Virus record (IMG/VR): IMGVR_UViG_3300036398_001080
Location: 1-20,512 of that record
Length of the DNA stretch: 20,512 nt
Source: a virus
Direction: 5' to 3' (one strand)
Below are positions 1,668 through 3,770 of this stretch, in pieces (the stretch's first letter is position 1; every line of letters begins with the position of its first letter). Position numbers and translations under genes: made by a program. The notes under the pieces were generated by a model. That model was not told the DNA's origin. It did not search any database and worked only from the letters and a program-made list of their open reading frames with translations.

Positions 1668-2102
1668 CTATATTTGGTTTGGGTTTAGTGGTGTGGAAGG
1701 CAGTACGAAGCCCTGGGCTACGGTTGTGGCAACGGGTGCGGTATGGACTATGTCCACGGTGAAATTGGGAGGGGCGATATGTCGGGCGATCTCGCAAAGG
1801 TCGTCGGCCTGGACGATGGCCAGCCACTTCTTCTCGCCGTTGCGCCGAAAAAACACTGCCGGGATCTTGCCATCTGGTGCATCGGACTTGGCCTGCCGCA
1901 TCCATTCCTCCGGCTTGACCTGCTGGCAACGCTTGACCTCAACGTGAAATGGGAAATTCCCACAGACCACATCCCCCGAACCGCCCTCTGGATTACCGGC
2001 GTACTGCTGTGTGCGCCGCGCTTTTTGCCAGCCCTGCTCGCGCAGGTATGATGCAAACTCCCTCTCCCCTGCCGCCCCCTTGCGCCTTGAATTGATTGCC
2101 AT
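1668..2102 (-). CDS. Holliday-junction-resolvase-like PD-(D/E)XK nuclease
   Basis: This is a 144-aa basic protein with the minimal PD-(D/E)XK endonuclease core. It shows NSRRKGAAGEREFASYLRE (E13 or E15 in helix 1), GSGDVV (D44) and FHVEVKR (E55-x-K57), followed by a strand-helix region rich in basic and aromatic residues. This order and size match archaeal Hjc/phage resolvase-like nucleases, which cut branched DNA before packaging. The last 30 residues are Pro/Thr-rich and probably disordered. The ATG at 2102 is the only sensible start; upstream lies a short gap containing one copy of a TTGACTAGGT element. It heads a block with the SSB and exonuclease. A VRR-NUC or restriction-like nuclease cannot be ruled out, but the short N-terminal motif favours the resolvase type. 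Confidence 0.75.
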   Translation of the reverse strand: MAINSRRKGAAGEREFASYLREQGWQKARRTQQYAGNPEGGSGDVVCGNFPFHVEVKRCQQVKPEEWMRQAKSDAPDGKIPAVFFRRNGEKKWLAIVQADDLCEIARHIAPPNFTVDIVHTAPVATTVAQGFVLPSTPLNPNQI

Positions 2103-2128
2103 CGCCCGACCCTAGCGGGGATGTCAAA

Positions 2129-2138
2129 ACCTAGTCAA
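2129..2138 (-). promoter_or_regulatory. TTGACTAGGT element, copy A
   Basis: This is a 10-bp sequence, TTGACTAGGT on the minus strand, ending 26 nt before the ATG of the resolvase-like gene. An identical copy in the opposite orientation lies before the plus-strand gene at almost the same distance. It begins with a -35-like TTGACT, but no good -10 box is visible at 17 nt. A -35 half site or an operator are both possible; the function is inferred. Confidence 0.4.
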
Positions 2139-2318
2139 CTACTTTTTTGCGTCCTCGTCAAAGCACTCCAGCAACCCCGCACCGGTCATCCTCTTGGCCA
2201 CCTGCGGGTTCTCCCGCAACCATTCGGCGGCCTCCTCGACCGAGTTCATCTTATTGACGGCGTTCTCGAAGATACGCCATGCCTCCTTGGAGGTTAGAGA
2301 TCGCTTAATATACGCCAT
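2139..2318 (-). CDS. Small helical hypothetical protein (59 aa)
   Basis: I do not recognise this 59-aa protein. It is predicted to be mostly alpha-helical and charged, with KEAWRIFENAVNKMNSVEEA and EWLRENPQVAKRM segments and an acidic-basic end (ECFDEDAKK). The frame is open to a TTG at 2363, but the ATG at 2318 is preferred; a weak GGG ribosome site lies just upstream. It overlaps the 3' end of the endonuclease gene by 25 nt in another frame, so the two are probably translated together. A perfect AAGGAGG lies inside the coding region (around 2284-2290) but no in-frame ATG follows it closely, so I do not use it. A partner or regulator of the nuclease is possible but unsupported. Confidence 0.55.
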   Translation of the reverse strand: MAYIKRSLTSKEAWRIFENAVNKMNSVEEAAEWLRENPQVAKRMTGAGLLECFDEDAKK

Positions 2319-2671
2319 GAAGACCCTGTGCGGATTGATGCCTTGTAATTCTTGCCTTTGCAATCCCTTGGGTTCACGATCCAGAACAGATCGTCATCCA
2401 TTCCCCACAAAATAAAAACATCGACCCCTCCAGAATAAAGCCTCTTTGAACTAAGACCCTTGCAGGTCATAAAGCCATACCTGTTCCGATCTGGGTCTTT
2501 CCGCTCGGATGTCTTGACCTGGATGCGGATAAACCGCTTGCGCTTCTCGGCCACCAGGTCATACCCGCAAAAATCCTCAAGCGGAGTCAGCACTTGATAG
2601 CCCAGCCGCAACAAGGCTCCGGCCACCCTGGCCACCCCGACTGCTCCTATCTGGCGGTTGGATAATTTCAT
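2294..2671 (-). CDS. I-Ssp6803I-like PD-(D/E)XK endonuclease (freestanding)
   Basis: This is a 125-aa protein resembling the group I intron-associated PD-(D/E)XK endonucleases. The helix IGAVGVARVAGALLRLGYQV leads into a catalytic core with YDLV (D38) and FIRIQVKTSE (Q51-x-K53). The Q-x-K variant, instead of the usual D/E-x-K, and the 13- and 15-residue spacing from the Asp match what I recall for I-Ssp6803I. The helix-1 glutamate of that enzyme appears to be Val13 here, so activity is uncertain. No intron or interrupted gene is visible around it, so it is a freestanding copy. It starts only 37 nt from the divergent plus-strand gene. It may be a selfish homing nuclease, or a domesticated phage enzyme. 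Confidence 0.7.
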   Translation of the reverse strand: MKLSNRQIGAVGVARVAGALLRLGYQVLTPLEDFCGYDLVAEKRKRFIRIQVKTSERKDPDRNRYGFMTCKGLSSKRLYSGGVDVFILWGMDDDLFWIVNPRDCKGKNYKASIRTGSSWRILSDL

Positions 2672-2673
2672 GC

Positions 2674-2683
2674 TTGACTAGGT
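2674..2683 (+). promoter_or_regulatory. TTGACTAGGT element, copy B
   Basis: This is an identical 10-bp copy of the element at 2129-2138, inverted with respect to it. It lies in the 37-nt divergent gap, 25 nt before the ATG of the plus-strand gene and 3 nt before the start of the minus-strand endonuclease. Relative to the gene downstream of each copy, the two have the same orientation and nearly the same spacing. This suggests a common promoter or operator rather than a random repeat. Confidence 0.4.
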
Positions 2684-2708
2684 GGCGCGAATGCTGGAGT
2701 TTTTACAC

Positions 2709-3050
2709 ATGAAAGCAACACTATTCCTAATGGCGGTGCTGGTGGCACCGGTGATGGGGGAGGATGAAATGGATGATTTCATGGGCGGTGTTTACGATAA
2801 GCCTGGGATTTATGCGAAAACCTCAAATGTTGCTATTGGCGATGGGATTGTTATTCGATCTGGAGACACATTTTTTACAGATGAAGGCATTTGCAGGAAG
2901 GCGGGATCTTTCTACTTCAATGAAAAAGATATTGTATTAAGCACTGGCAATTCTTTTATATCAGACAAAAACTTCACCGCGAAATCCGGCAATGTGTATG
3001 TGGGAACTGGCGGGTTTTCAGTTCTTACAGATTCAGTAATTTTCAAATAA
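2709..3050 (+). CDS. Predicted exported protein of 14-residue repeats
   Basis: This is the only plus-strand gene I accept. It has 113 codons from the ATG at 2709. The start is MKATLFLMAVLVAPVMGEDE, a classic short signal peptide with a possible signal peptidase I site after VMG. The mature part has at least five tandem 14-residue units: TSNVAIGDGIVIRS, GDTFFTDEGICRKA, GSFYFNEKDIVLST, GNSFISDKNFTAKS, GNVYVGTGGFSVLT. Each unit starts with a turn (G/S-x) and alternates hydrophobic residues, as expected for a beta-solenoid or stacked hairpins. A GGAG site lies 9 nt before the ATG; an in-frame ATG at 2691 is an alternative start. It runs against the virion operon, and its stop directly abuts the lysozyme stop. 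Moron-like cargo acting at the host envelope is my inference; the family is unknown to me. Confidence 0.7.
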   Translation: MKATLFLMAVLVAPVMGEDEMDDFMGGVYDKPGIYAKTSNVAIGDGIVIRSGDTFFTDEGICRKAGSFYFNEKDIVLSTGNSFISDKNFTAKSGNVYVGTGGFSVLTDSVIFK

Positions 3051-3770
3051 TCAAACAGATCCAAAAAGACCAAGCCTATTGTTAATTCTGTTTTCAAGAC
3101 CTTGAAGTAATTTCCTTCTTGCAGGATTTTTTCGCGCCATTGCGTATTCGTCCCGAAGTTGGGCTTGGCTTGCAGCTTTCATTAGCGCACCAGGCTGGAC
3201 CGTGCCGATTGCCTGCAAGGTCTGTGGGCCAAGCCTTCCGTCAACGGAAACCTTTTGGCCAAGGCTATTAAGACCTTGCTGAATGTATTTGGTTGCACCA
3301 CCAGCGCCACGGTTGAAGGCCATATCCTGAACAAATGCCTGCATTTCCTGTGGCATTCTGTCAACAATAGGGGCGGTGTACTTCCTGATGTATTTTGCGG
3401 CCTCAATTTCGCGTTGTTCCGGCGGCAAATTGGCAAGTCTTCTGGCTTCACCGGGGTGGAATTTGTCATTGATTCCGGCAACCTCATAGGTTCCGCCCAT
3501 GTCGCCGGAAGGAAGTTTGTAAACCGTGATGTTGCCAGCCTTGTCCCTTCTGGCCTCCATGCTTACTGTCTGGAGCGCGGCAGGCAGAAGGGGATCAATC
3601 TCTTGTGATACCGGAGTTGCTTGTTGGTATAGTGGTTCCTGTCTTTTCATCGCCATATCCTCCACTTTTGAAATTGGCTCAAGCTCTTTGCGGATGGCCA
3701 TATTACGAGATTTTTCCTCAATTTGGCCAAATCCACGCCCAACAGATCCAGATATGTCAAATCTGGCCAT
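3051..3770 (-). CDS. GH108-like peptidoglycan hydrolase (virion lysozyme or endolysin)
   Basis: This is a 239-aa protein whose C-terminal 170 residues resemble GH108 phage lysozymes with a PG_binding_3-type region. Visible features are E72 in SMEARRD (candidate catalytic acid), LPSGDMGGTYEVAGIN at 86-101 (compare the DPGG-T-x-G-I stretch of GH108), AFNRGAGGATKYIQQGLN at 151-168, VDGRLGPQTLQAI at 176-188 and LRDEY at 205-209. The first 60 residues are charged and not part of the enzyme. It is the last gene of the virion operon and begins with a TAATG overlap on the ejection-protein gene. It may therefore be a virion-borne wall-piercing enzyme rather than the lysis endolysin, though either is possible. 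No signal peptide is seen. The usual EGG catalytic motif is not obvious, so this assignment is moderate. Confidence 0.65.
   Translation of the reverse strand: MARFDISGSVGRGFGQIEEKSRNMAIRKELEPISKVEDMAMKRQEPLYQQATPVSQEIDPLLPAALQTVSMEARRDKAGNITVYKLPSGDMGGTYEVAGINDKFHPGEARRLANLPPEQREIEAAKYIRKYTAPIVDRMPQEMQAFVQDMAFNRGAGGATKYIQQGLNSLGQKVSVDGRLGPQTLQAIGTVQPGALMKAASQAQLRDEYAMARKNPARRKLLQGLENRINNRLGLFGSV

Follow-up and report, generated by a model that had tools for sequence, protein, structure and literature searches.

An identical 10-bp sequence upstream of two divergent genes

The DNA analyzed here, a stretch of 20,512 bases from an uncultured phage (hereafter the window), raises the question of why one and the same 10-bp sequence, TTGACTAGGT, stands at a matched distance before two genes that point away from each other. 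As stated in the initial annotation, exact copies lie at 2129-2138 on the minus strand and at 2674-2683 on the plus strand, and a third exact copy is absent from the whole record. The copies end 26 nt before the ATG of a resolvase-like gene (2102, minus) and 25 nt before an ATG at 2709 (plus), so that the pair brackets the endonuclease and 59-aa genes exactly as described. The left copy adjoins the stop of the 59-aa ORF (2139-2318, minus), 2 nt separate the right copy from the ATG of the endonuclease (2671), and the gene at 2709-3050 (plus) is the only likely gene of the window that is not encoded on the minus strand. The features are summarized in Table 1.

Taken by itself, the bare 10-bp inverted repeat is not significant against chance expectation, because the window contains 375 inverted 10-mer pairs, 20 of which are less than 560 bp apart. 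What does exceed chance is a TTGAC core at a fixed distance from the ATG, accompanied by a -10-like hexamer, and this becomes visible only through comparison with relatives. Our analysis suggests that the two copies of TTGACTAGGT contain, with high probability, the -35 boxes of two separate sigma70-type promoters that make leaderless mRNAs.

Table 1 Coordinates of the genes and predicted promoter elements around the two TTGACTAGGT copies.
Feature	Position	Strand	Remarks
Holliday-junction-resolvase-like PDDEXK protein	1668..2102	-	phrog_244 E=6e-24; PF24608 PDDEXK_15 E=2e-12
Palindrome CCCG-CTAGGGT-CGGG around the -10 hexamer	2105..2119	-	equivalents in L003-L284
-10 hexamer TAGGGT (predicted)	2109..2114	-	N18 from -35, N6 from ATG
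-35 hexamer TTGACT, resolvase-operon promoter (predicted)	2133..2138	-	first six bases of left TTGACTAGGT copy
59-aa ORF	2139..2318	-	stop codon overlaps TTGAC box in many relatives
PD-(D/E)XK endonuclease	2294..2671	-	PF11645 E=1e-15; between the two promoters
-35 hexamer TTGACT, plus-strand gene promoter (predicted)	2674..2679	+	first six bases of right TTGACTAGGT copy
-10 hexamer GAGTTT (predicted)	2697..2702	+	N17 from -35, N6 from ATG
Variable secreted 113-aa protein with 14-residue repeats (predicted)	2709..3050	+	predicted leaderless start 2709

A TTGAC core is kept at a fixed distance from both start codons

We scanned IMG/VR with the resolvase-like and endonuclease proteins, which yielded 80, 28, 80 and 80 loci with some contigs recurring, and thereby assembled a comparison set of about 200 related metagenomic phage loci. 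Wherever a contig reaches, the gene order is constant and runs from the lysis gene through the opposite-strand gene, the endonuclease, the 59-aa ORF and the resolvase to the SSB-like gene. Relatives in which the resolvase directly follows the 59-aa ORF, with no extra gene, are referred to as class A. An extra small gene separates the two in some clades (L011, L013, L017, L036, L076 and L082). In clades of this kind, a TTGAC promoter is found before the start of the extra gene, at a similar distance. Among cultured relatives, a DNA match for the region was not found, and protein matches were limited to the resolvase and the capsid, at below 60%. A genome scan for the host returned resolvases that were only 31-48% identical, which is too little to name a host; these matches came mostly from Lachnospiraceae and other clostridia, with some from MAGs of Verrucomicrobia, Kiritimatiellae and Planctomycetes.

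Of 110 distinct relatives, 108 have a TTGAC in the right region that begins 34-38 nt ahead of the plus-strand ATG. When all 5-mers were scanned by distance without an anchor, TTGAC likewise emerged as an isolated peak with variable flanks, in 98% of 91 distinct right regions. On the left side, each of the 37 distinct class-A intergenic sequences that were tabulated has the same five bases, beginning 33-37 nt ahead of the resolvase ATG. Thus, both sites carry a TTGACA-like -35 element as known for sigma70-type promoters, with five of five bases of TTGAC matching.

The complete layouts in the window read TTGACT-N18-TAGGGT-N6-ATG on the left (2138 to 2100, minus) and TTGACT-N17-GAGTTT-N6-ATG on the right (2674 to 2711, plus). 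To assess the -10 element, TTGACN was taken as the -35 box and a hexamer of the form xAxxxT was sought 16-18 bp downstream of it and 5-8 nt before the ATG. Such a hexamer was present in 87/87 distinct right promoters as compared to 22% in shuffled spacers, and in 30/30 distinct class-A left promoters as compared to 13%, with the shared ancestry among relatives left in place by these shuffle controls. Both sites therefore show the A2 and T6 of a sigma70-type -10 box at 16-18 bp spacing. The remaining hexamer positions are diverse (e.g., GAGACT, AATAGT, TATTCT, TACTTT, GATACT, TAGCGT and TAATGT), and diversity outside A2/T6 is what would be expected if selection acted on the two key positions of the -10 box. 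Measured against the E. coli consensus, the -10 boxes of the window are weak, matching at three (TAGGGT) and two (GAGTTT) of six positions, and a scan with this consensus flagged neither site. The hexamer TAGAGA at N15 was considered as the right -10 box and dropped, since A2/T6 are present in all sequences when the hexamer is placed at N16-18. Also counting against the promoter reading is a more distant resolvase class, which carries T[CT]GAC together with CTAAAC/CTAGAC-type hexamers lacking T6.

Further sites of related form were observed. In the relative G006, TTGACA-N18-TAGTCT-N6-ATG precedes a small early gene, similar sites occur in the relatives G007 and G008, and this third site, with the general form TTGAC-N16/18-TAnnnT-N6/7-ATG, is located at G006:C1:27905-27943, G007:C1:27592-27629 and G008:C1:29478-29442. 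Moreover, a second box, TTTGACA, lies downstream of the first one at 2122..2128 (minus), the two TTGAC being offset by 11-12 bp, or about one helical turn; it is present in the class-A relatives listed and absent from the other classes.

One could ask whether TTGAC is kept for reasons other than transcription, namely on the right as a signal for translating the endonuclease (GTCAAgcATG, read on the other strand) and on the left as the overlapping stop of the 59-aa ORF. Indeed, the right box and the endonuclease start are 2 nt apart in 87/110 relatives, and a role of the right TTGAC for the endonuclease is therefore not fully separable from its putative promoter function; on the left, the 59-aa stop TGA is located inside TTGAC in 22 of the 37 sequences. 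However, the 59-aa ORF of the window ends with TAG before the box and yet TTGAC persists, the endonuclease start is found at differing distances from the box (2, 7, 8 or 17 nt) while the plus-strand ATG stays at 34-38 nt, and a matched -10 hexamer is present at both sites. We consequently regard this explanation of the conserved core as improbable.

Predicted leaderless starts

At both sites, the predicted -10 box stands 5-8 nt before the start codon, a position expected of leaderless genes. Shine-Dalgarno-like motifs were found at none of 30 class-A resolvase starts and at 14% of the starts of the plus-strand gene; the SSB-like gene that follows the resolvase has them in 76% of cases and the lysis gene in 64%. 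The starts of the endonuclease (14%) and of the 59-aa ORF (18%) are also poor in such motifs, and the absence of the motif alone is therefore weak evidence. The clade of the window also has a GGAG, located 9 nt ahead of the plus-strand ATG (2709), and a transcript beginning further upstream could use it as a Shine-Dalgarno site.

Judging from this arrangement, the TTGAC inside each TTGACTAGGT copy would act as the -35 box of a host-type, sigma70-like promoter, and both -35/-10 pairs would most likely be recognized by the host RNA polymerase. Transcription would begin at, or a few bases from, the A of each ATG, giving mRNAs that are leaderless or nearly so and that would be translated without a Shine-Dalgarno site. 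One promoter would drive the recombination operon comprising resolvase, SSB and exonuclease, in which the resolvase-like gene comes first with a predicted leaderless start at 2102, and the other would drive the lone secreted-protein gene on the opposite strand. The matched spacing of the two TTGACTAGGT copies would then arise because a transcription start at the ATG fixes the distance from the -35 box to the start codon.

The second half of the element diverges independently at the two sites

The TAGGT half of TTGACTAGGT varies independently at each site among relatives. Pairwise comparison of bases 6-10 gave TAGGT/TAAGT, TAGAT/TAGGT and TCGGT/TAGGT already in near relatives, and TCATT/TAGGC, TGATA/GGATT and others in the set as a whole. 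On average, 1.7 of these five bases match between the left and the right site as compared to 1.4 under permutation (p = 0.05), a slight excess that is driven by the window's own clade, and most spacer columns hold only 0.1-0.8 bits. The exact pair is confined to the closest relatives of the window phage; further exact copies are rare in the contigs of relatives, and one, in G001, is located inside a coding ORF. The pattern argues for selection on the TTGAC core only and not on the whole 10-mer. The identical TAGGT halves in the window phage would be a coincidence, possibly aided by a weak spacer preference.

These data also bear on the earlier proposal of a promoter or operator shared by both genes. 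Its promoter part holds insofar as each copy appears to be a promoter element for the gene ahead of it, while the 10-bp identity does not represent a shared element, only TTGAC being conserved. That TTGACTAGGT is a 10-bp operator through which one regulator fires or represses both genes together would be in line with the copies being identical and equally oriented toward their genes, both in the window and in the relatives closest to it, as well as with the slightly elevated matching of the five bases. Against this stand the independent divergence of bases 6-10 at each site, the abundance of 10-mer pairs by chance, and the lack of clear co-conservation of the full element at both sites. A common operator of this type is very unlikely and already largely refuted by the relatives.

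The endonuclease is a core gene and the variable module lies in the plus-strand gene

The initial annotation had alternatively proposed that the repeats delimit an inserted nuclease cassette and had called for an alignment of relatives lacking the endonuclease. In 197/197 relatives whose contig covers 1,600 bp or more on the upstream side of the resolvase, the endonuclease occupies the same place, leaving no empty site to align, and it is therefore a core gene rather than an optional insert. Although the two copies bracket the endonuclease and the 59-aa gene exactly, the idea that they are terminal repeats or target-site marks of such a cassette has next to no likelihood, given this universal presence, the invariant synteny, the lack of conservation of the copies as a pair, and homology breaks that fall within the plus-strand gene (start ~2767-2816, end ~3049-3136), away from the repeats.

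The break is evident in the comparison to L003, in which homology covers 524-2785 (96%) and begins again at 3049 (67%). Since promoter and signal region are kept while homology breaks inside the gene, the module exchanged between close relatives is the mature part of the plus-strand gene and not the nuclease. Identity of the encoded protein among relatives ranges from 32 to 100%. The 113-aa protein of the window has no Pfam or PHROG match. Its AF2 model (pLDDT 85) shows a disordered, signal-like N terminus followed by repeated beta strands, and a fold search with the protein returned no significant match. The 3' ends of the plus-strand gene and of the lysis gene face each other with zero gap (3048-3051).

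A covarying palindrome surrounds the predicted -10 box of the resolvase operon

The left -10 box is enclosed by a palindrome whose arms differ by clade while their complementarity is kept. The clade-specific versions include CGCCCG-CTAGGGT-CGGGCG, GCCCC-CAATGT-GGGGC and TCCGCT-AGAACC-AGCGGA, and furthermore GTTGGT-CTGCTAAA-ACCAAC, GGGTT-GACAGCTA-AACCC and GCGCGATA-GATCAA-TATCGCGC. In a best-stem scan, stems of at least 5 bp were obtained for 47-89% of the distinct left regions, depending on the class, as compared to 10-12% in shuffles; in the right regions, the frequency was 2%, and the opposite-strand promoter of the window has no such palindrome. The palindrome is single-copy, as no extra, operator-like copies were detected in the contigs of seven relatives scanned. 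A strand test, which uses G.T versus A.C mismatches to discriminate between selection on RNA and on DNA, encountered few mismatches. An Rfam search gave no match.

A tentative and rather unlikely reading is that the start of the resolvase operon works as a switch that senses the origin of the transcript through the palindrome hairpin. In RNA reading through from upstream genes, the palindrome would fold directly before the ATG and block translation, while transcripts initiated at the leaderless promoter of the operon itself would lack the 5' arm and be translated. If true, the signature of such a switch would be arms that covary across clades and a loop containing a -10 box.

Comparison to known systems and implications

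The cI gene of lambda, when transcribed from PRM, is a phage gene on a leaderless mRNA. In this respect it resembles the present case, but cI is a regulatory repressor gene whereas a recombination operon is concerned here. In Cluster K mycobacteriophages, the start-associated sequences (SAS) constitute a conserved sequence that occurs in many copies at ribosome-binding sites, some of them with inverted repeats. The palindrome described here resembles the SAS as a conserved element tied to start codons, but differs in being single-copy and in keeping only its complementarity. The SAS are named in a study of Cluster O mycobacteriophages, for which divergent leaderless SigA promoters (PL1/PR2) were predicted (PMC4351075). 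In contrast to Cluster O, the promoters of this different, uncultured phage family are separated by ~550 bp that include two genes, and 17-bp genome-wide repeats are lacking.

A TANNNT motif located ~12 nt ahead of the start codon has been described as a sign of leaderless bacterial genes (PMC3160421). Like the TA-led genes of Actinobacteria and Deinococcus-Thermus in that study, the sites reported here combine a -10 box ~12 nt upstream, few or no Shine-Dalgarno motifs and an operon-first gene. They differ from them in that the -10 hexamers often lack the first T and a clear -35 TTGAC is present.

Our analysis provides a testable map of transcription starts for a widespread family of uncultured phages. 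It also carries a warning, as a short identical pair can result from coincidence added to a conserved core of 5 bp. Further work would be worthwhile on the covarying palindrome around the -10 box of the recombination operon. Taken together, the recombination operon and the variable secreted gene of these phages are probably expressed from leaderless mRNAs.
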